From Verrucomicrobiales bacterium (GTDB taxonomy: Bacteria; Verrucomicrobiota; Verrucomicrobiia; Limisphaerales; UBA11320), in the NCBI GenBank assembly GCA_016793885.1, contig JAEUHE010000138.1, positions 1 to 47,203 of the forward strand: 47,203 nt of DNA, in the 5' to 3' direction. Position 1 is the stretch's first letter. Every line of letters begins with the position of its first letter. This document shows positions 9,195 to 47,203 of the stretch, piece after piece. The position numbers and the translations under genes are program-made. The notes beneath the pieces were generated by a model. It saw nothing but the letters and a program-made list of their open reading frames with translations, was not told the DNA's origin and ran no database searches.

Positions 9195-10931
9195 TTATTC
9201 CTTTTCTACCCCGTTGTTCCAATACTTCTGCATCTCTTCAGCGCTCGGCACTTGCAAGGGGCGCACAATGCGGAAGCCAAGGAACTGGGCATCCGTCAAA
9301 TACCAGATGCTCTTCGGAAGCTGAGGATCCTGCATCTTCCAACTCTTATCGGAAGCGCGGCGGACCGCAGATCGGAGGCTCTTCGGCTCATCATCCCAGG
9401 ATCCACCCTTCGCGACGTGCGGATAGGGAGTCTTCGAGGGAACATAGGGGTTGAGCTCCCCTAAAGCTTTCAGGGCCTCAAAGGAAGGCTGATACTGATC
9501 CAAGCACCACTCGGCCACGTTGCCGTGCATATCATACAAACCCCAAGCGTTGGGCTTTTTCTTACCCACCTTCTGATACTTGAAATCGCTATTCTTCTCA
9601 TACCAGGCATATTCGCCAATCTTGCTGGCATCGTCGCCAAACGAATAAGCGGTCGTCGATCCGGCGCGACACGCATACTCCCATTCGGCTTCCGTAGGCA
9701 GACGGTAGAAATGTCCGGTCTTGGCGCTGAGCCACTGACAAAACTTGTTGGCCGCGTGATGGGTCATACTGATCGCCGGGAACCCGTCCTTGCCCATTCC
9801 AAAACTCATCTCCACGTACGGCTTGGTCGGACGGGTCACCACATCAGAAACCTTGTCGACCTCGGGATCCGTGCTGATCTCGGATTTGAACTTATGTTCT
9901 TCGTCCGGATACATGAACAGTTCGAACTCGTTCCAGGTCACTTCATATTGCCCCATCCAGAACGGAGGGATCTGAATCTTCACACGAGGTCCCTCATCGT
10001 CCTGGCGCTTGGCCTCGGTCTCCGGACTGCCCATCAGAACCTCTCCCCCCGGAATCGCCACCATGGCATACCGAATCTTGGTGCCAGGAATGAGGTTGGT
10101 GTAGCGCTCCATGGCGGCGGCTGACGCCACCTTGGATTTCTCCACGATCATCTTATGAATGTTTTTGACCAACTCTCCCTCGTTGGCCCCCGGTGCGCTT
10201 TCCGCCTTCTTGGCTTCCAGCTTCACCCCATCAGGCCAAGGAGCACCCTGCTCAATCCAGGCCTGCAGCAACTCCACCTTCTCCTTGGGCATCGGTCCAC
10301 CCTTTTTGGCCGGAGGCATCACACCATCATCATCCGCCGTCAAGGTCGTGGTCACGAAAACCCGGCTCTTTTTCGGATCGAATGGGACGATGCCAGAACC
10401 GCTCTCGCCCCCACGGAACGCCGCTTCCTTCTCATCAAGCCGGAGCTCACCTTTGATGTAATCCGCCCGATGGCAGGACACGCAGTTCTGCTCCAAAATG
10501 GGTTTGATATCCTTGGTAAATTCAGCGCGACGGATCTTCTTTAAGGTCACATCCGCAGGCCAGTTGGCACCTTGCTCAATCCACTGCTTGAGCACCGACA
10601 CCTGCTCCTTGGTCAGCACATCCCCTTTGGGCGGCATGATATCATCGTGATCGGCCGGGAGGATAATGCTCTTGTAGATCGAGCTTTCCTCGGGCTTGCC
10701 GGGCACCAAACCCGCTCCTTTGTTCTCGCCGCCGCTCTTGGTCGCGGCCGCCGTATCCATGCGGAGCTTCCCCTTCGGATGTTCAGCGTCGTGGCAGCTC
10801 AGGCAGGTCGATTCCAGAATCGGCCGAACATGTGTTTGAAAATCAATGGGTTCAGCAGCAAAGCCCGACACCATGGTCGCTCCCATGACGGCGGATACCC
10901 ACATCGTTCGAGAAAAATCAGTCGCAAACAT
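9195..10931 (-). CDS. Secreted di-haem cytochrome c / formylglycine-enzyme-like fusion
   Basis: This 578-residue exported protein begins with a signal peptide. Two 'planctomycete cytochrome c' type modules follow, with haem-binding CLSCH at 43-47 and CVSCH at 150-154. Each has a downstream KGxLRxD motif and a distal methionine motif (DIMPPKGD at 97-104, GVMPPAKKGG at 203-212). The rest (about 285-560) is an FGE-sulfatase/SUMF1-like domain: MVAIPGGEVLMGSPETEA, YRLPTEAEWEYACRAG, GLYDMHGNVAEWCLDQY, GGSWDD, LGFRIVR. The reactive cysteine pair of true formylglycine-generating enzymes is not seen before LGFRIVR, so sulfatase activation is unlikely. A periplasmic electron-transfer or binding role is inferred. 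The stop is followed directly by a repeat. Confidence 0.87.
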   Translation of the reverse strand: MFATDFSRTMWVSAVMGATMVSGFAAEPIDFQTHVRPILESTCLSCHDAEHPKGKLRMDTAAATKSGGENKGAGLVPGKPEESSIYKSIILPADHDDIMPPKGDVLTKEQVSVLKQWIEQGANWPADVTLKKIRRAEFTKDIKPILEQNCVSCHRADYIKGELRLDEKEAAFRGGESGSGIVPFDPKKSRVFVTTTLTADDDGVMPPAKKGGPMPKEKVELLQAWIEQGAPWPDGVKLEAKKAESAPGANEGELVKNIHKMIVEKSKVASAAAMERYTNLIPGTKIRYAMVAIPGGEVLMGSPETEAKRQDDEGPRVKIQIPPFWMGQYEVTWNEFELFMYPDEEHKFKSEISTDPEVDKVSDVVTRPTKPYVEMSFGMGKDGFPAISMTHHAANKFCQWLSAKTGHFYRLPTEAEWEYACRAGSTTAYSFGDDASKIGEYAWYEKNSDFKYQKVGKKKPNAWGLYDMHGNVAEWCLDQYQPSFEALKALGELNPYVPSKTPYPHVAKGGSWDDEPKSLRSAVRRASDKSWKMQDPQLPKSIWYLTDAQFLGFRIVRPLQVPSAEEMQKYWNNGVEKE

Positions 10932-11021
10932 TGAGAGAAGAGTTTCTTACCAGAACCCAAGGTTATCAAGAGTCAAGTTGAGGACGAAGGACACCCCCTC
11001 AGGTATTCAACTGAGAATCGA

Positions 11022-13910
11022 TCAGCGGCTTTGAAACTGATACTCGCCCGACCCGACAGTCATCACCACTCGATCCCCTTCGCGACGCAGAACTCGGACG
11101 CCTTCGGATTGGTCCACGGGATGCCCACCCTCGGAAATACTGGCCTCATCCCGCGCGGGGAAATAGACCGTGGCCGTGGCATTCGCCGGCACCGTCAGGT
11201 TCAGCGAAAACACGGATCCATCCCGGTGCCACGAACTTCGAATGGGACCCCGGATCGAGTTGTAAGTGGCATCAACCCTATCAATGGGCGCACTCTTCGC
11301 CTGGGGATCGAGGTCGCCTTTTCCGGGTCCAGGCCGAATCACGATCTGCTTATAGGCCGGTCCATCCGTGTCGATGCCCGCCAGCGAGCGAAACGCCCAC
11401 TCGCAGACCGCTCCAAACGAATAGTGGCTGAAGGAGTTCATCGCGGCGTTGTGGCGTCCAAAGCCCTCCTCCTTGGTATAGCTATCCCAGCGCTCCCAGA
11501 CCGTCGTCGCGCCGTTGATCACCTCGTAGCCCCAGGAGGGAAAGTCCCGGCTTTGAAAGAGTCGCAACGCCAGATCGTGATGCCCGTGGGCGGTCAGAAC
11601 CGGCAGCAGCCACTTCGTCCCCAGAAATCCGGTAGCCATTCGATGGCCGTTCTTGGCGATTTTCTCGGCCAGCCGATCCGCAGCTGCCTTGCGCTGATCC
11701 TCCGGCAACAGCTCAAAGGCCAGCGCCAGCACGTAGGCGGTCTGCGTATCCACCTTCAACCCGCCTCGGGGCAGCCCATAGTGTTTGAGGAAGGCGGCCC
11801 GCACCTCGCCAAACCACCGCCGATAGTTGGACGCCTCCACGTCGCGACCCGTTGCTTCGGCCAGCTCCGCCATGAGCGCCGAGGTATGCGCGGCATAGCA
11901 GGTATCGATAAACTCAATCGGCGTTTCTTCGCCGAGGTTCAGCCAATCGCCCCAGGTGTTGCCAATGGATAAACCCAGATGTTTGGAACTCGCGGCCATG
12001 CGGAACTCCATGAACCGGGACATCGATTTCCACTGACGATCCACGAGACGCTTGTCCCCATAGACCTTCCACATGGTCCATGGACAGATGATCCCCGCAT
12101 CCATCCAGGCCGTGCCAAACGACTTTCGGGGTTCTCCATGCGACATCGGATAGGGGGCATAGTCGGGATAAGCTCCGAACGAGCGTTGCGCCTCGGCCAC
12201 ATCGTCGAGCCATTTGGTGAAAAAAGCGGCCACATCCGCGTTAAAGGAGGCCGTCCGGGCATAGATCTGCGCATCGCCCATCCAGCCCAGACGCTCGTCC
12301 CGCTGAGGGCAATCCGTAGGCACCTCCACGAAATTGGCGCGTTGAGTCCACAGCGCGTTGGTCCAAAACTTGGAGAGAACCGGGTCGCTGCAGGAGAAGG
12401 TGGCCGCCAGAGGCGTGTCGTTGTGCATCACCAACCCGACCGCATCTTGAAGCTCAGGACGCACCGGCACTCCGGAAATCTCAACATACTGAAAGCCGTG
12501 ATACGTAAACCTGGGAGTCCAAACTTCGCCGGCCGGGTCCCCTTTCAAAATATAATAGTCGGTAGCCCGGGCCTTCCGCAGGTTCTCCGTCATGAGCCGG
12601 CCATCCGGGTGCAATAGTTCGCCGTAGCGGATTTGCACCTTGGTCCCGCGGACCCCGCGCAGCTTGAGCCGAGCCACGCCGGCGAAGTTCTGGCCGAAAT
12701 CGAAAATATAGACGCCCGGATTGGGCTTCATCAGCTGAATGGCGGGCAACTCCTGGGTCACCCGGATCGCGGGAGCTGGATACGATTGCAAAACAGGCGG
12801 TGCCCGAAAGCCGAGATCGACCTCGCGATCCCCCATGGTGTCCGAAAAGATCGCCCTCACACTGCCGTTCCCCTCCGCCCGAATACAGGGCGCCCACTGT
12901 CGATCGTCAAAGCCCGCCTCAGCCCAGCCCGTCAGTTCGGCCCGCGAATCAAAGGTTTCTCCCATGATCAGGTCAGCCTCGCGGATGGGACCCTGGTCGG
13001 TCACCTTCCAGGTGGCATCCGTCCCTACCCAGGAACGTGTTCCATCCTCAAACTCAACCTCCAGCTGAGCGCACAACGCGGGCGTCTTCCCGTAGATCGA
13101 CCGGCCTGTACGGTACGGCCCGTAACCGACCAGCAGCCCATAGCCAACATAGCCGGCATACCATCCATCGGCCACAATTCCCCCGATCGCGTTGGTCCCT
13201 GCCCTCACCAATCCGGTCACATCGTGGGTGCGATAATACACCCGCTTGGCGTAGTCGCTCCACCCAGGCTCGAGCAGGGCATCGCCAACTCGCCGACCGT
13301 TGAGGTACAGCTCATGGAGTCCGAGGGACGAAGCGTAAATGGTCGCACGCCGAACCGCCTTCGGAAGGCCAAACTCTTTGCGGTAGTGCCGAGCGGGAGG
13401 GAGGTGGAGCTGATCGCGATCCCGATGCAAGGGCGTCTTGTCGCGAACACTGATCCACACTGCTTTCCAGTCACGAGGATCGAGCAATCCCATGGACCAG
13501 CTGGCCGTCTCGCTCCATTCGGATTCTTGCCCCGCCTGATCCCAAACCTTCACCTTCCAGAAACAGAGCTGGCCTGAACCGAGCGGTTTCCCTTCATAGG
13601 CCCGGCCGATGGTCTCGTCCGACGCCACTTTGCCGGTATCCCATAAGTCGCCCGAGTTTGCTTCGAGGGCTTGCTTGGAGCTGGCGACCAGCACGCGATA
13701 ACCAGTCTGTCGCTGGGCGCGCAAACTGGATTCCAGCTTCCAGCTGAGGCGCGGAGAAGGGCTATCAATGCCCAGCGGATTCTGAAGCCACTCGGTTCGC
13801 AACGCGACCGGGCTCAACCCCTCGGCCGACAGGGATACCGGCCAGGGCCCGATCAGAAGACCGGCAACCAGCAACGCCCACGACCCCGGCATCAGACAGC
13901 GATTCAACAT
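11022..13910 (-). CDS. Alpha-L-rhamnosidase, glycoside hydrolase family 78, secreted
   Basis: The 962-residue enzyme hydrolyses terminal alpha-L-rhamnose from plant or microbial polysaccharides and glycosides. After the signal peptide (LLVAGLLIGPWPVSLSAEG) come a fibronectin-like domain (about 35-145), the rhamnosidase N-domain with LYLNGRRVGD and WSDYAKRVYYRTHDV, and a beta-sandwich. The six-hairpin catalytic domain holds DCPQRDERLGWMGD at 533-546, where E539 is the expected general acid, and TVWERWDS with E806, the expected base. Length and order match GH78. I start at the ATG at 13910 because a longer frame from 14072 would overlap the upstream sugar-binding gene by about 100 bases and bury the signal peptide. 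It follows that gene by 58 bases on the same strand, probably one operon. Confidence 0.93.
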   Translation of the reverse strand: MLNRCLMPGSWALLVAGLLIGPWPVSLSAEGLSPVALRTEWLQNPLGIDSPSPRLSWKLESSLRAQRQTGYRVLVASSKQALEANSGDLWDTGKVASDETIGRAYEGKPLGSGQLCFWKVKVWDQAGQESEWSETASWSMGLLDPRDWKAVWISVRDKTPLHRDRDQLHLPPARHYRKEFGLPKAVRRATIYASSLGLHELYLNGRRVGDALLEPGWSDYAKRVYYRTHDVTGLVRAGTNAIGGIVADGWYAGYVGYGLLVGYGPYRTGRSIYGKTPALCAQLEVEFEDGTRSWVGTDATWKVTDQGPIREADLIMGETFDSRAELTGWAEAGFDDRQWAPCIRAEGNGSVRAIFSDTMGDREVDLGFRAPPVLQSYPAPAIRVTQELPAIQLMKPNPGVYIFDFGQNFAGVARLKLRGVRGTKVQIRYGELLHPDGRLMTENLRKARATDYYILKGDPAGEVWTPRFTYHGFQYVEISGVPVRPELQDAVGLVMHNDTPLAATFSCSDPVLSKFWTNALWTQRANFVEVPTDCPQRDERLGWMGDAQIYARTASFNADVAAFFTKWLDDVAEAQRSFGAYPDYAPYPMSHGEPRKSFGTAWMDAGIICPWTMWKVYGDKRLVDRQWKSMSRFMEFRMAASSKHLGLSIGNTWGDWLNLGEETPIEFIDTCYAAHTSALMAELAEATGRDVEASNYRRWFGEVRAAFLKHYGLPRGGLKVDTQTAYVLALAFELLPEDQRKAAADRLAEKIAKNGHRMATGFLGTKWLLPVLTAHGHHDLALRLFQSRDFPSWGYEVINGATTVWERWDSYTKEEGFGRHNAAMNSFSHYSFGAVCEWAFRSLAGIDTDGPAYKQIVIRPGPGKGDLDPQAKSAPIDRVDATYNSIRGPIRSSWHRDGSVFSLNLTVPANATATVYFPARDEASISEGGHPVDQSEGVRVLRREGDRVVMTVGSGEYQFQSR

Positions 13911-13968
13911 AACAGTGGCATAGGACCGTGAGACATCTGCAACGTGAGGAACCCAGCCCGACCCAGAC

Positions 13969-14979
13969 TCAAAAATCGAACTGATCAATGTTCTCTTTGT
14001 TAAAGATAAACGGTTTCCCCAAGAGGATCTGATCCCCCTGGATCTCCAGATTACCGAGCCGACCCGCGGCATAGGAGGTCGCCCCGGGCTTTAATGTTCC
14101 GGCGGCCAACCCATTCGCGGCATGAACCGTCAGGTAGCCCAGATCGACTGTCTTCCAAAGAATGACGCTCTGGGTGACGTCCTCCTTCACATACCTTCGA
14201 TTCTCGCTGGGCAGTCCCAGGCCGATGACTTTGACGGTGCCCGCCTTGCCAGCCTGCTTCACCGCCTCCGCCGCTCCCGGCACCGCCGGAGAACAGATCG
14301 CCATGATGAGCTTAAGATTCGGATAAGCGCTGAGCAGCGAGGTCGCTTCGGTCTGGGCTTTGTCCTTCAGATCATCACAGGGCTTGGTGGCCACGAGTTT
14401 CATTTTGGGATATTTCTCGGCCAACCGGGCTTCGATGTGTTTACGCCATTCGTTCATGTTGGCCGCGGTCAGGGATGCCGTGATAATGGCGAATTCCCCC
14501 TCCCCGCCCAGCAGGCGGCCGGCTTCGTCCATCAAGGTATGGCCGATGCCCTCCGGGGTGGCTTGGTTGACGAAGAAGTCGCGGGCATCCGTGGCGGCAT
14601 CCGAGTCATAGGTCAACACCTTCACCCCCTTTTGCTTCGCCTTGCGGAGGGCGGTGGAGATGCCTTCCTTGTTTTCGCAGGCCACGGCGATCACGTCCAC
14701 GCCCAAGGTGATCCAGTTCTCGATGATCTCATTCTGCTTGGCGGGGTCCGGATCCGTCGGGCCGTCGAACAAGAGATCCGCCTTCAATTCCCCGGCGGCC
14801 TGATCGGCACCCTGCTTGCAAGAGATGAAGTAAGCGTTGCCTTTGCTTTTGGGCATCAGCGCGATGGTCCGCTTGGCTGAGGCGGTCCCCCCCGAGTTCG
14901 AACCTGTTTCGGCCGGTTTATTGCATCCAACGGTCCCCAGCATCGCCAGTGATGCCAGCAGCGTGATAAGCTTTTGCAT
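13969..14979 (-). CDS. Sugar ABC transporter substrate-binding lipoprotein (rhamnose RhaS/LsrB-like)
   Basis: This 336-residue type I periplasmic binding protein has a lipoprotein signal ending in LGTVGC (Cys19), so it is probably membrane-anchored. The body matches the peripla_BP_4 group that includes rhamnose- and autoinducer-2-binding proteins: KGNAYFISCKQGADQAA, PAKQNEIIENWITLGVDVIA, VLTYDSDA, MNEWRKHIEARLAEKYP and IMAICSPAVPGAAEAV. Its position right before a GH78 rhamnosidase suggests L-rhamnose or a related sugar as ligand. No permease or ATPase gene lies next to it; the upstream neighbour is a mobile element and then a divergent gene. The transport partners must therefore be elsewhere, or the protein acts as a sensor. 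Confidence 0.88.
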   Translation of the reverse strand: MQKLITLLASLAMLGTVGCNKPAETGSNSGGTASAKRTIALMPKSKGNAYFISCKQGADQAAGELKADLLFDGPTDPDPAKQNEIIENWITLGVDVIAVACENKEGISTALRKAKQKGVKVLTYDSDAATDARDFFVNQATPEGIGHTLMDEAGRLLGGEGEFAIITASLTAANMNEWRKHIEARLAEKYPKMKLVATKPCDDLKDKAQTEATSLLSAYPNLKLIMAICSPAVPGAAEAVKQAGKAGTVKVIGLGLPSENRRYVKEDVTQSVILWKTVDLGYLTVHAANGLAAGTLKPGATSYAAGRLGNLEIQGDQILLGKPFIFNKENIDQFDF

Positions 14980-15051: not shown

Positions 15052-15060
15052 CAAGCGGCA
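15052..15060. repeat. 9-bp target-site duplication, left copy
   Basis: CAAGCGGCA directly abuts the left end of the palindromic element and is repeated exactly at 15440-15448 on its right end. Confidence 0.8.
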
Positions 15061-15439
15061 GGGTGTGATTAAACCCGGGCGAGAATGGTGGTGAATTCGC
15101 GACGGACTCGGCGGCCTTATGCCGGGCTTTCAGCCCTTGATGCAAGGGGGGATGGCCACCTGGGGTTGTCACCCCAGGCTGGGATGGGACGCACCGTTGG
15201 CGCTCAAGGGCAACGATTCACTGGACCGATGCAACCCAGCTTAGACGAGTGAGCCCAGATACGTAGGGGCTCCACCAGTGGCGTTAGACTCCACGGGCCA
15301 AAGGCCCAGCACCATACCAGCCTGGGGTGACAACCCCAGGTGGCCATCCCCCACGCACGCCGAGGGCTGAAAGCCCGCACCATCGCGGGAGCCTACACGC
15401 GGAATTCAATCTAAATCTCACCCACTTCTAATCACACCC
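15061..15439. mobile_element. MITE-like palindromic element, 379 bp, with terminal inverted repeats
   Basis: The ends are GGGTGTGATTA at 15061-15071 and its complement TAATCACACCC at 15429-15439. Inverted symmetry continues inward for roughly 130 bases on each side: TGAATTCGCG against TGAATTCCGCG, GGGCTTTCAGCCCT, then GGATGGCCACCTGGGGTTGT and CACCCCAGGCTGG. The central 120 bases are unpaired and contain no coding frame. An exact 9-bp duplication, CAAGCGGCA, flanks the element, which is the mark of transposase-mediated insertion. It carries no transposase, so it would be mobilised in trans. The terminal GTGTGATTAxAAGTGGGTGAG word recurs at 47012-47032. Confidence 0.82.
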
Positions 15440-15448
15440 CAAGCGGCA
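15440..15448. repeat. 9-bp target-site duplication, right copy
   Basis: CAAGCGGCA abuts the right terminal inverted repeat and is identical to 15052-15060. Confidence 0.8.
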
Positions 15449-15509
15449 GGAGGTCGCACCCGCGCCTTGACCCCGGGCAAACCAACATTACTATAACATC
15501 TGTATTTAT

Positions 15510-18500
15510 ATGCATTTCGCCAAGGTGTGTCTGACCTCGTGGTTGCTTCCTCTCTTGATCGCGTTCTCGTGTTCGGTGAGCACTCGAATATTCGCCCAAG
15601 CGGACAATGATCATTTCGAGAATGCGACCCAACTGATCGGCGATCGCGGGACCCTGGAGGCCTTTGTCCTGAACGCAACCCGGCAACCTGGAGAGCCGGA
15701 GGCCCCGGAGCTGAAGGCTGGCAGCGTCTGGTTCAGATGGGTAAGCCCCACCAATGGAACCTTGGAACTCTCACGGCAAAGTGTCGGGTTTCCCGATGGC
15801 CTCCAGACCGTGGCCCTCTTTACCGGTCAATCGCTCAGCTCGCTCGTCAAGGCCGTCTCCACCCTGAATAGCGACTTCCCCTTCTCCCGTCTGCGAACCT
15901 CGGTCGCAAAGGGCCAAGTCCTGTGGATCGCCGTGGGCGGGGAAGGCCCCTCCGTATCAAGTTCCCCGGATCGGTTAACCCTCGCCTATCGAGTTGATCC
16001 GCTTCCACAAAACGACATCTCGACGCGTGCGTTCGTGCTGACCGGTGACGACATCGAATGGGACGTGCGAGCGTCCGGAGGCACGAGCGATGCGCTGGAG
16101 CAAAGCGTGGATTTTCCACCGAACACGTCGGTGGTTTGGTATCGATGGACCTCCCCGAGCCGAGCGGTCTGCACGCTGCGGCTGAATGGGGAGTTCATTC
16201 CTGCGAACGCCCAGATCTTCCGTCGAAACTCCAATCAGACCCTGCAGAAAATCCAGATCGACGCGCCCTTCACGTTCACCACCGCCGCGGGCACGACCTA
16301 CTGGATAGCCATTGAGGAAACGAGCTGGCGGCCCATGAGGTTCCGACTCATGGCCACCTACCTGTTATCTATGGAGGGGTTTGTTAACAACGCCAAGGAA
16401 CTGCCCAAACCCCAGGACTTCGTTTTCCGGTCCTCAGGCTACCTTCCCCAAGATCAGATCAGCTCCTACATGCTGGCGCTCTCCCATCCACTTAACGTGG
16501 TCTTGCAGACCAACCGGGTGGCGGACTACGTCATTCCCTCCATCGCCCCTGGCCAATACACTGTCTTTATCCAAGCGACCACGACCTCCGGACGAAACTA
16601 TGGGCTCGCCCCGACGCTCCTGACAGTGCGGCTCCCCAATGATCGCTTTGAGCAGCGAACGGAGCTACAAGGGATCGACCTTTTGTTCGACGCAGACCTC
16701 CGTGGTGCGACCGCGGATGCGATCGACCCGGTCGGCATGCCCAGCGCGTGGTGGAGGTGGAGGGCCCCGTTCTCCGGCCGTCTGGTGCTCGAACCGAGTT
16801 TCCAAAGTCCGGTGATCGATGCCCGGATATTCCGCTGGAGTTCCGAGAGCGGATTGTCGCTCGTGAACCGGGACGAGATCCAGGAGGGCCAGGAATATGC
16901 CATCGCGTTCTACGATGCGCAGGCGGGGAATCGGTTCAACGTTCGACTGGCGCTCGTTCACAATGAGTATCCGCACGATCAATTTGACCAACGAAAACTG
17001 ATTGCCAGCACCCCATTCGTCGAGCGGCTCCGGAGCGACCGTCTTTCGGCCGAGACCGGTGAACCCGCCGGGTATTACGGCAACGCAGCCAGCCGAACCG
17101 CCTGGTACACCTTCTCCTCGATCGAAGAGGGAAATCTGACGGTGGGAACCGTCGCCAATGCGGAGCAGATCTTCAACTACGACTCCAGTTTCGCCGGAGA
17201 GGTGTATCGTGGAACCGAACTCACCAACCTGACCCTCGTCTCCTCCCTGTCGCGCCCCAACAGCTTTCGTGTCTTGCCGGGCGAAACGTACCAGATCCGC
17301 GCCGTGTGCCCCCCTTATGACACGTGGCAACAACCTCTATTCTACTGCGCGTTCCATGCCAGCCCCACCAACGATTGGTTCGCCACCGCACAGACGCTCA
17401 CTGGAACCCATCTTTCGGTCCGGACCACTCTGGACGGAACCTCCACCGAAACGAACGAACCGCCCCTGCAACCCGTCAGCGGTCTCGCTGCGAGGAGAAG
17501 CATCTGGTTTCGTTGGAAGGCTCCACGGGAGGGCAATGTCGCGGTTTTTGTGCAGCGGAACGCGCCGACGAACGCGATCGTCGCCGCGCCGGTGATTCAA
17601 ATGTATCGTGCGGAAGGATCAGACTTCTCCGGGCTGATCCCGCTAGCCCCTGCTCCACTGCCAGAGATCGGCAGCAGTTTCACCGTAGCCGCCGGCCAGA
17701 CATACGCCATCCGGGTGGCGGACCATCCCGCCAAACCAAGCACTAACTCAAGCTTGGTCCTCGAGCTCCACCTCGCAGAGGTTGAGGCGGCGTTCGAAGG
17801 AAGCAACGGAGTCGTCTCACTGGCAAATCCGAAAGAGTTGGTAGTGACGAATGCAGGGATCCGACCGGAGGGCTTGACGCACTACCTCAAGCTCTATTCT
17901 CCCGATCCGACCCTGGTTGAAGGCGCTACACAGGGCTGGGGCAGATTCCCCCTGCACACGATCCAGGAGTCGGGAGCCTTTTCCTTCACCACCTGGAACC
18001 CCGGGCGCTACTGGCTCGCCATCGTGGCCTCGAATCAATGGGGCGAACTGGCCTACTCACGCCCGCTGGCTCTCGTGCTGCAGCCTGGAAATGATGATTT
18101 CTCGAATAGCTTTGCGATGCTCGGAAGCGCCACCAACGCGTGGGTGGCCACCGCCACCGTGGAGTCGGGAGAGCCGCTCCTGGGACAGACTTACACGAAC
18201 GGAACGATCTGGTTCCACTGGACAGCCCCGGCTGACGGCGTGGCCACCGTGCAAACCACATCCAGCGCGTCGGTGGTCGTTTATGAAGGGGATACCCTGG
18301 GGCAGTTAACGCAAGTCGCACCCGTCCAGGGCAGCGGTTCGAGGATTTCCTTTTACGCGGTCACGGGCCATCGCTACCAAGTGCAGGTCGCGACGTCCGC
18401 CATGCCGAATCCATCCCAGAACCGACAGATCACGCTCACCCTCGGATTGGTAAGGCCTACACTCACCTGGAGCCCTCAGCCTTTACCCTGGGTGATCTCT

Positions 18501-20405
18501 GCGGGGACCTCGGTCGAACTGTCGTTTGATTTGGCCGGTCGCGCCGAGAATGTTGCGGATGTCTGGGTTCAGGTCGGCGACCAACGGTTGCCGGCCCCGA
18601 CCGTGCCTCCGTTCCAGGTTTCGTTCCAATCCAATGTCCCGGGAGGATTTTCAGCACAGGCGTTCATGCGCCTGGGCTCCGGATTCATCCTCAGCAGCCC
18701 CGAGATCACCCTCTGGTGTTCGGTGACCAACGGAACGGCTGCCGCGGCGGTGCCGCTCGCGGGCTCGAAGGGTCTGATGCGGATAGAACCTCCGTTGGGG
18801 GCCGGAAGCACGGCGGACTTCGTGTCGGAGCAATGGTTCTCTTGGCATTCGCCGGCCACCGGTGCCTGGTTCGTTGAAGGTGCCCAAGTCCAGCCGCTGC
18901 CTCGGCCCATTGAACTCTATCGAGTCGACCCGGAGGGAAACCCTGTCCTGATTCCCTACCAATCGGGCTACGAACCCAACCCTTGGATGGCCTATCCAGT
19001 GGAAGCGGGAGTGACGTATTCAATCCGGGTCCACTCGTACCCCACCGAGCCCTCCTTTGTGCTCCCCTACTCTTTCGAGACGAATCCACCCAATGACACT
19101 TTCGCGAACGCGAATCCGTTGGTAGGAAGCCAGTTCTCAGCGGATGCGTTCGCTCTGCTCGCGACCACAGAATTGGGAGAGGATCTACTCGGCCATACAC
19201 CTACTCGCACACTCTGGTGGAGTTGGGCAGCGCCCCAGGATGGATTGCTCAAACTGAGCGTAAGCCGTCCCCACCGATTCTATCTCGGCGACCGCTTGAA
19301 CGGCCTTACCCTGCAACGCAATACTGTCGGGAACCCTGGCTTGGGGGTTTATCGAGTTCAAGCCGGCCGCAACTACCGCATCATGGTAGAGAACGAAGAT
19401 CTCCCGGCGACCCGCGTGCACTTGGAAGGAAGGCTGGTCAGCACGCCCCTCAACGACGCCTTTGCCAAGGCGATAGTGCTCAGCGGCCGGCGGAACCATT
19501 TCGAGGGATCCCTGGCGGGCGCGACCGCAGAACCGGGTGAACCCTCCCTGACCTCTCCGACGGCGCCAACGGTGTGGTGGACCTGGACAGCACCCCACAC
19601 GGGCGAAGCCCGCTTCAGCCTGGCTGGATACAAAGACTACTATTCGCTGAGTGCATTCGAAGGAACGAAGCTGCTGGAATTGACGCAGCTCGCCAGCGGA
19701 ATCAACGAAGTCCGCTTCACTGCGATCCAAGGGAAGCCGTACTACCTGAGATTCGCCTCCTCCGTTCCGGAAGGAGCTGACTTTTCCCTTCGCCTAGTCC
19801 AGGCGACTCCACCGCCGAACGACTCGTTCGCATCACCTGAGCGACTGGCAGGTTCCACTGCTGAGGCATCCAGCTGGACCTATGGCGCTACCCGCGAATT
19901 TCAGGAGCCGTGGCATGGGGGAGTTTACGGAGGCCGATCGAGTTGGTTTGCATGGAATCCGCCTTCAGGCGGCCAGGCCAGGCTGCGCATCGAGGGAGCC
20001 TTCTTCGGACTCGTTGGGATCTATCGGGGCACCGAGCTGCACGATCTGGCGGAGGTCGCGAGCGTCAGCGGCCAGCTTCCGTTGGAGTTAGCCTTCGACG
20101 TGGACGCCGGAGGTGCTGTCCTCATCGCGGTGGACTCCGCGAACGGTGAATCGGGGGATTATCGGCTCTCGCTAGGGGTCGCGCCCCCCGTCCAGCTCCA
20201 CATCGTTGCGGCATCGGATCAGACTCTCCGCCTGAGAGGGTCAGGCCTACCCCAAAAACCGGTCGCCGTCGAGCACTCCGAGGACCTCCTCGAATGGGTC
20301 GTCTGGCAGACCATCACTCCCGCGGAGGGGACATCGGAAGCCTCTATCCAGCTCCCGCCTGCGAGTGAAGGCCGTCGATTCTTTCGGCTCCGGGAGGTTC
20401 GGTAG
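15510..20405 (+). CDS. Giant secreted protein with ten beta-sandwich-like repeats
   Basis: The 1631-residue protein has a signal peptide (residues 1-29). It then carries irregular repeats of about 110-240 residues that begin with NDxF-type heads, at about 33 (NDHFENATQL), 168, 377, 489, 621, 861, 1195 (NDTFANANPL), 1315 and 1437. Each is followed, usually after a GEP motif, by an aromatic strand of the form VWFRWVSP, such as LWWSWAAP or VWWTWTAP. I count ten such strands, one lacking its NDxF head. The layout resembles pre-peptidase C-terminal-type beta-sandwich domains. The last 70 residues (VEHSEDLLEW...GRRFFRLREV) match a C-terminal module common in verrucomicrobial exported proteins. No catalytic motif is visible; a surface, matrix or glycan-binding role is only inferred. 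No clear SD precedes the ATG. Confidence 0.85.
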   Translation: MHFAKVCLTSWLLPLLIAFSCSVSTRIFAQADNDHFENATQLIGDRGTLEAFVLNATRQPGEPEAPELKAGSVWFRWVSPTNGTLELSRQSVGFPDGLQTVALFTGQSLSSLVKAVSTLNSDFPFSRLRTSVAKGQVLWIAVGGEGPSVSSSPDRLTLAYRVDPLPQNDISTRAFVLTGDDIEWDVRASGGTSDALEQSVDFPPNTSVVWYRWTSPSRAVCTLRLNGEFIPANAQIFRRNSNQTLQKIQIDAPFTFTTAAGTTYWIAIEETSWRPMRFRLMATYLLSMEGFVNNAKELPKPQDFVFRSSGYLPQDQISSYMLALSHPLNVVLQTNRVADYVIPSIAPGQYTVFIQATTTSGRNYGLAPTLLTVRLPNDRFEQRTELQGIDLLFDADLRGATADAIDPVGMPSAWWRWRAPFSGRLVLEPSFQSPVIDARIFRWSSESGLSLVNRDEIQEGQEYAIAFYDAQAGNRFNVRLALVHNEYPHDQFDQRKLIASTPFVERLRSDRLSAETGEPAGYYGNAASRTAWYTFSSIEEGNLTVGTVANAEQIFNYDSSFAGEVYRGTELTNLTLVSSLSRPNSFRVLPGETYQIRAVCPPYDTWQQPLFYCAFHASPTNDWFATAQTLTGTHLSVRTTLDGTSTETNEPPLQPVSGLAARRSIWFRWKAPREGNVAVFVQRNAPTNAIVAAPVIQMYRAEGSDFSGLIPLAPAPLPEIGSSFTVAAGQTYAIRVADHPAKPSTNSSLVLELHLAEVEAAFEGSNGVVSLANPKELVVTNAGIRPEGLTHYLKLYSPDPTLVEGATQGWGRFPLHTIQESGAFSFTTWNPGRYWLAIVASNQWGELAYSRPLALVLQPGNDDFSNSFAMLGSATNAWVATATVESGEPLLGQTYTNGTIWFHWTAPADGVATVQTTSSASVVVYEGDTLGQLTQVAPVQGSGSRISFYAVTGHRYQVQVATSAMPNPSQNRQITLTLGLVRPTLTWSPQPLPWVISAGTSVELSFDLAGRAENVADVWVQVGDQRLPAPTVPPFQVSFQSNVPGGFSAQAFMRLGSGFILSSPEITLWCSVTNGTAAAAVPLAGSKGLMRIEPPLGAGSTADFVSEQWFSWHSPATGAWFVEGAQVQPLPRPIELYRVDPEGNPVLIPYQSGYEPNPWMAYPVEAGVTYSIRVHSYPTEPSFVLPYSFETNPPNDTFANANPLVGSQFSADAFALLATTELGEDLLGHTPTRTLWWSWAAPQDGLLKLSVSRPHRFYLGDRLNGLTLQRNTVGNPGLGVYRVQAGRNYRIMVENEDLPATRVHLEGRLVSTPLNDAFAKAIVLSGRRNHFEGSLAGATAEPGEPSLTSPTAPTVWWTWTAPHTGEARFSLAGYKDYYSLSAFEGTKLLELTQLASGINEVRFTAIQGKPYYLRFASSVPEGADFSLRLVQATPPPNDSFASPERLAGSTAEASSWTYGATREFQEPWHGGVYGGRSSWFAWNPPSGGQARLRIEGAFFGLVGIYRGTELHDLAEVASVSGQLPLELAFDVDAGGAVLIAVDSANGESGDYRLSLGVAPPVQLHIVAASDQTLRLRGSGLPQKPVAVEHSEDLLEWVVWQTITPAEGTSEASIQLPPASEGRRFFRLREVR

Positions 20406-46988: not shown

Positions 46989-47075
46989 CCTCTACCGCTA
47001 GGTCCCCACGCGTGTGATTAAAAGTGGGTGAGGTCAGGGGATCCCGGCTACGCCGGGGGACGAAAGCGGTAGAGG
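46989..47075. repeat. Inverted repeat around the MITE terminal word
   Basis: CCTCTACCGCT at 46989-46999 and AGCGGTAGAGG at 47065-47075 pair perfectly. Between them GTGTGATTAAAAGTGGGTGA at 47012-47031 matches the right end of the element at 15061-15439 (one mismatch). GGATCCCGGC/GCCGGGGGA forms an inner hairpin. It may be a degenerate relative of that element. Confidence 0.5.
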
Positions 47076-47118
47076 TCTCTGAGCATTACCCACAAGTTCG
47101 GAGGGCTTCCTCCCTATC

Positions 47119-47171
47119 CCAACGGGATTGCGCCTCAAAGCCCAGGGTTGGGAGGAACGAGCTACCCTGGG
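47119..47171. repeat. Palindromic intergenic repeat with CCCAGGGT/ACCCTGGG arms
   Basis: After CCAACGGGATTGCGCC, the words CCCAGGGT (47141-47148) and ACCCTGGG (47164-47171) form a perfect 8-bp inverted repeat around GGAGGAACGAGCT. It is typical in style of the repeats scattered in Verrucomicrobia and Planctomycetes. No gene is seen from 46948 to the right edge. Confidence 0.6.
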
Positions 47172-47203
47172 GAAAACGCCATAGAATCCACAACCCCATC
47201 GTG

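Follow-up and report, generated by a model that had tools for sequence, protein, structure and literature searches.

Transposases of the p-MULT groups, which include ISKra4, act on ends of 18-39 bp that finish in C and produce target duplications of 8-9 bp (Guerillot et al. 2014, PMC3942029). Some members of the ISKra4 group, and also TnGBS/ISLre2, insert ahead of sigmaA promoters, at 13-17 bp from the -35 box. Within the ISKra4 family, such targeting has been reported only for the ISKra4 subgroup and not for the ISMich2 group, whose members carry two ORFs with a -1 frameshift (PMC3942029). Verrucomicrobia are absent from the host list for p-MULT 4, and in plants the Pack-MULEs insert near the 5' ends of genes (PMC3942029).

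Few transposons are able to locate promoters to the exact base. The element described here lies in a window of 47,203 nucleotides (the whole stretch of DNA that was analysed) from a Verrucomicrobiales bacterium. It carries no transposase gene, its ends are shared with ISKra4-type insertion sequences (IS) of related genomes, and it sits at a distance from an apparent promoter that recurs across its end family.

A 379-bp element between two divergent genes

The features discussed below are as follows.

13969..14979, minus strand: divergent neighbour, a periplasmic sugar-binding protein, RhaS-like (PF13407; TIGR02637 at 5e-76, below its cut-off)
15052..15060, plus strand: target duplication, left copy, CAAGCGGCA; no duplication length other than 9 bp is enriched in the family
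15061..15083, plus strand: left terminal inverted repeat, GGGTGTGATTAAACCCGGGCGAG, with one mismatch to the 23-bp end GGGTGTGATTA-N5-GGGTGAG
15123..15137, plus strand: hairpin A of the interior module, left arm, CGGGCTTTCAGCCCT
15147..15187, plus strand: long inner inverted repeat, left arm, with hairpin B CACCTGGGGTTGTCACCCCAGGCTGGGATGG; 98% complementary to 15312-15352
15188..15311, no strand: spacer between the arms, 124 bases, gene-less
15312..15352, minus strand: long inner inverted repeat, right arm, hairpin B inverted
15363..15377, minus strand: hairpin A, right arm, AGGGCTGAAAGCCCG
15417..15439, minus strand: right terminal inverted repeat, an exact match to GGGTGTGATTA-N5-GGGTGAG
15440..15448, plus strand: target duplication, right copy, CAAGCGGCA
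15467..15472, plus strand: -35-like box TTGACC, whose first base is base 28 beyond the right end; this offset is the one enriched across the family
15489..15494, plus strand: -10-like box TACTAT, separated from TTGACC by a 16-nt spacer
15510..20405, plus strand: 1631-aa ORF downstream of the candidate promoter; its start is 71 bp from the element
47010..47032, plus strand: second end of the same type, GCGTGTGATTAAAAGTGGGTGAG, with one mismatch; its element runs off the contig end

The element occupies positions 15061-15439, between the divergent genes at 13969..14979 and 15510..20405, and is bounded by GGGTGTGATTA (15061-15071) and its reverse complement (15429-15439). Directly outside both ends lies CAAGCGGCA, so the perfect 9-bp target duplication proposed in the initial annotation is present exactly. 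An 11-bp duplication, CAAGCGGCAGG, was also considered at this element and was rejected because the end family shows 9 bp. Each arm has about 127 bases of inward symmetry, with a core of 41 nt at 98% complementarity (15147-15187 against 15312-15352) and a further 15 nt at 100% (15123-15137 against 15363-15377), while the outermost 38 nt are 71% symmetric and the first 11 exact. As a single strand the element folds at -222 kcal/mol, with z = -11.5 against dinucleotide shuffles. No ORF of at least 90 aa was found within 15061-15439, no Rfam match in the window and no intrinsic-terminator-like site at the element. The window element is a MITE: it is short and lacks a transposase gene, and it has terminal inverted repeats, a target duplication, dispersed copies and ends in common with autonomous IS. 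The same view had been taken in the initial annotation from the palindromic arms and the target duplication, and the copies and the IS of related genomes described below now bear it out.

The 1631-aa ORF has no Pfam or NCBIfam match. On the other side, an alpha-L-rhamnosidase (11022-14072) adjoins the RhaS-like binding protein and a PSCyt1/FGE-sulfatase protein lies at 9195-10931; the identities of these neighbouring genes suggest a rhamnose-use cluster at 9195-14979. The element that begins at 47010 (47010-47203) has an interior unlike that of the 379-bp element, and in this draft genome contigs often break within elements of this kind.

Dispersed copies and evidence for mobility

Copy counts were obtained by searching the contigs of the bacterium's own genome, an 8.7-Mb draft in 274 contigs. 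About 45 places in it are homologous to the 379-bp element at 74-96% identity, several of them near full length, which answers the question raised earlier of whether further copies exist. GGGTGTGATTA itself occurs 42 times, as against 2 for a reversed control, and these two counts together indicate that the element is not a product of chance. When the sites of GGGTGTGATTA were read, the full shared end proved to be a bipartite 23-mer, GGGTGTGATTA-N5-GGGTGAG, that caps differing interiors. With up to 3 mismatches this end is found at 176 sites in the own genome (5 in the reversed control), and with up to 2 mismatches it is present in 31 of the 97 genomes searched, the own genome included. Among the matches listed by an exact scan of GTDB genomes, every title naming a group was verrucomicrobial (Pedosphaera, Limisphaerales, Terrimicrobiaceae and Verrucomicrobiales, plus a few lake MAGs labelled Akkermansia), some titles saying only 'bacterium'. 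At one locus of the collection (L019; G000:C237, 67670-71048), the outer flank repeats the right end and a 9-bp word (CCGCACACG / CCGCGCACG), an arrangement that resembles two tandem copies sharing one duplication between them.

Do these ends mark units that have moved? Mobility was assessed on 60 pairs of ends from the retrieved loci, each pair having no more than 4 mismatches over its two ends together. Exact 9-bp duplications flank 24 of the 60, where 0.4 would be expected by chance, and 36 have at most one mismatch; for other duplication lengths from 4 to 13, between 0 and 2 exact cases were seen among the 60 pairs. Empty sites were also recovered. A same-genus genome without such ends (G084) has them for three copies of genome G041. 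Opposite a 173-bp copy flanked by CCACACGCG it has 280 bp without interruption, 92% identical and with CCACACGCG only once, and the sites of the two further copies are likewise uninterrupted at 86% and 79% identity. For the locus of the window copy, two same-genus genomes have the RhaS-like neighbour, but synteny breaks at the element. The flanks of two MITE loci (L370 and L377) and of other MITE loci in G041 are dispersed repeats themselves, with many matches in G084 and G007, and palindromic repeats therefore cluster in the same intergenic regions.

Insertion sequences with the same ends

The initial annotation called for a search for an IS with matching ends, and five such IS, of 1394-1446 bp, were found in other genomes of the order. 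Three have perfect 9-bp duplications, namely L037 (TTGGAAATG), L226 (GGGGAAACC) and L163 (CTCCATGAG, with 2-3 mismatches in its ends); the duplication of L269 matches at 8 of 9 positions and L116 has none. Against the NCBIfam model NF033572 (ISKra4 family), OrfB of four IS matches at 3e-52, 1.2e-48, 4.1e-28 and 1.2e-11, and L163 was found by a search for the ISKra4 family at 1.3e-59. This model is the best by far for the partner OrfB, the next (ISLre2) scoring far lower, and the OrfB scores, that of L163 included, fall below the curated cut-off of NF033572, as would be expected if the N-terminal part sits in a separate OrfA. In all five IS, OrfA (an open frame of 104-126 aa) and OrfB overlap at an invariant stretch of nine A, OrfB lying in the -1 frame, an arrangement that suggests programmed frameshifting; the OrfB copies of L226 and L269 have further disruptions. 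Three acidic residues, D118, D190 and E303 in the numbering of L037 OrfB, are conserved in 19-21 of 21 aligned transposases. By model match and by these conserved positions, the partner IS are classed as ISKra4-family elements with predicted DDE catalytic residues. Neither the family model nor the L037 protein detected an ISKra4-type transposase in the own draft genome; the copies there are therefore orphans, or their source is unassembled. We infer that the window element was moved in trans, by a transposase supplied from another element.

Interiors and the hairpin module

What lies between the ends is varied. After removal of the ends and clustering, the 60 end pairs comprise one IS group and 24 other interior groups, defined by having no match to each other at 1e-6, a grouping that rests on one similarity threshold. 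Folding with z < -3 is seen for 37 of 55 short interiors (median -6.0) as against 0 of 53 neighbouring stretches of equal length (median +0.2). Within the window element a three-hairpin module is present twice, the two units inverted relative to each other. The module consists of A (GGGCTTTCAGCCC), B (CCTGGGG..CCCCAGGCT) and C (GCGCC..GGCGC). The module is found in the order A-B-C...C-B-A, as in the window element, in a genome without such ends (G019), and in G041 it is everted and bounded by other termini, GTATGTGTTTAGCGCC. At L412-L420 of G041, the everted form is part of an unrelated repeat, about 260 bp long, whose ends are GTATGTGTTTAGCGCC...GGCGCTAAACAGATAC. Because it is found in other genera, arrangements and ends, the module is a separate repeat reused in the window MITE and not defined by it. 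The expectation that the inner words belong to a wider repeat family was thus correct, with the amendment that this family also exists elsewhere with other ends and is not delimited by the MITE.

A fixed distance to promoter-like sequences

Genomic flanks were read outward from every end, with bases counted from the end. Matches to TTGACA (at least 5 of 6) start at base 28 in 34 of 304 unique flanks, compared with 0-8 at any other base, and the excess is seen both in the own genome (13 of 121 flanks, background 0.46) and in other genomes (22 of 210, background 0.99). Paired -35/-10 matches also peak at base 28, a 17-nt spacer being commonest. The trinucleotide TTG is at base 28 in 79 of 327 flanks, while other offsets have a mean of 6.0 and a maximum of 21; the binomial p of 9e-63 is nominal because flanks were treated as independent and related copies may not be. 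The signal is one-sided: of 61 elements, 25 have TTG at base 28 beyond a single end and none beyond both. Three of the five partner IS do not show it, and no -35 stands at base 28 outside the window's second end (47010). Where TTG does occupy base 28, A is over-represented at base 19 and T at bases 21-22, a short way ahead of the -35 box. In the empty sites the promoter is there without the element, and it therefore predates the insertion. Taken at the level of sequence, these offsets indicate that the end family tends to insert at one exact distance upstream of predicted sigma70 promoters.

A model for insertion and its alternatives

The reading that we favour, with a probability of roughly 0.9, is that the MITE was moved by an ISKra4-family transposase through 23-bp bipartite ends, with a 9-bp duplication and with an end favouring a position 27 bp upstream of a -35 box. 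Under this model, the transposase (Mutator superfamily, DDE) would recognise the bipartite ends and move the gene-less element as a unit, and insertion would leave the 9-bp target duplication. Movement should require only the ends; the interior consists of two inverted units of a module that elsewhere has other ends. The favoured geometry would set an end 27 bp ahead of the -35 box belonging to a sigma70 promoter that is already there, so that elements would settle in intergenic DNA without displacing the promoter; the window copy would then stand at this 27-bp distance from what appears to be the promoter of the gene at 15510. The spacing suggests that the transposase may contact promoter DNA or RNA polymerase. 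Its source was presumably an IS with the same ends, since lost from the own genome or unassembled there. The copies, ends, duplications, partner IS, empty sites of other copies and promoter offset are observed in the sequences, and the identity of the transposase that moved the window copy, its contacts at the promoter and any effect on expression are inferred.

Could the spacing instead be a survivor effect, in which the same MITE inserts at random and selection purges hits in genes and promoters? Intergenic insertions are less harmful and would be over-represented anyway. However, selection would yield a broad zone and not one base, whereas the -35 matches peak at base 28 with neighbouring positions near background, and the base-28 signal is never found on both sides of an element. 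For this reason we regard survivorship as a very unlikely origin of the spacing. A second question concerns the enzyme, because the ends might belong to another transposase family with similar ends that the ISKra4-type IS shares or has borrowed. GG-rich ends with 8-9 bp duplications are found in several IS families, and the own genome yielded no ISKra4-type transposase by family model or by the L037 protein; yet the five same-ended IS, from different genomes, all have an ISKra4-type OrfB and mostly 9-bp duplications, and ISLre2, the next model, scores far lower, making a different transposase family very unlikely.

The strong fold of the element raises the further possibility that the inner palindrome, as a REP-like or RNA-hairpin repeat, is the mobile or selected unit, with the outer ends and duplication incidental. 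The module also turns up in genomes that lack these ends and next to different ends, its stems stay paired even as their sequence changes, and most interiors of the family are self-complementary. Against this, the 9-bp duplication lies exactly at the outer ends, 24 interior groups without the module have the same ends and duplications, and there was no Rfam match or terminator-like site. The hairpin module was accordingly rejected as the mobile unit, and we consider this alternative extremely improbable.

Comparison with known systems

The elements resemble the ISKra4 family (p-MULT 4, Mutator superfamily) in the NF033572 match of the partner IS, the end type, the 9-bp duplication and insertion upstream of promoters, and differ from ISKra4-family IS in that the window element has no transposase gene. 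The family itself, its 8-9 bp duplication and promoter-upstream insertion are known already; what differs here is the MITE form, the spacing and the two-ORF partner. In place of the published 13-17 bp, the distance from end to -35 is 27 bp, about one helical turn more; it is 18 bp when taken from the outer edge of the duplication, and how spacing is defined in the two cases therefore needs checking. The overlap of OrfA and OrfB at the run of nine A may, with its predicted -1 frameshift, correspond to the two-ORF arrangement of the ISMich2 subgroup; unlike ISMich2 as published, the elements here combine a partner IS of two ORFs with promoter targeting. TnGBS and ISLre2 (p-MULT 3) likewise insert at a constant distance ahead of promoters (sigmaA in their case), although those belong to another transposase family, are large elements or IS, and show oriented insertion 15-17 bp upstream. 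Our literature search, which covered open-licence papers only and is no proof of absence, returned no ISKra4-type MITE and no promoter-targeting MITE of TnGBS/ISLre2 type or from Verrucomicrobia. Sequence data alone supply natural insertion sites by the hundred, together with pre-insertion alleles and matching IS, and the spacing rule is therefore both measurable and testable. Part of the intergenic hairpin repeats in these genomes would have been delivered beside promoters by a targeted transposase and could affect gene regulation.

Plant Pack-MULEs and MULE-derived MITEs belong to the Mutator superfamily and combine one end sequence with many interiors. The elements described here share these properties and insertion near gene 5' ends. 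Plant Pack-MULEs carry captured gene fragments, and the interiors seen here are palindromic repeats. We speculate, as a possibility that is still rather doubtful, that they are a bacterial counterpart of plant MULE-derived MITEs, in which a Mutator-type end has repeatedly acquired palindromic interiors and, guided by contact with the promoter or RNA polymerase over a distance that exceeds the reported one by about one helical turn, has spread into promoter regions throughout an order of Verrucomicrobia.
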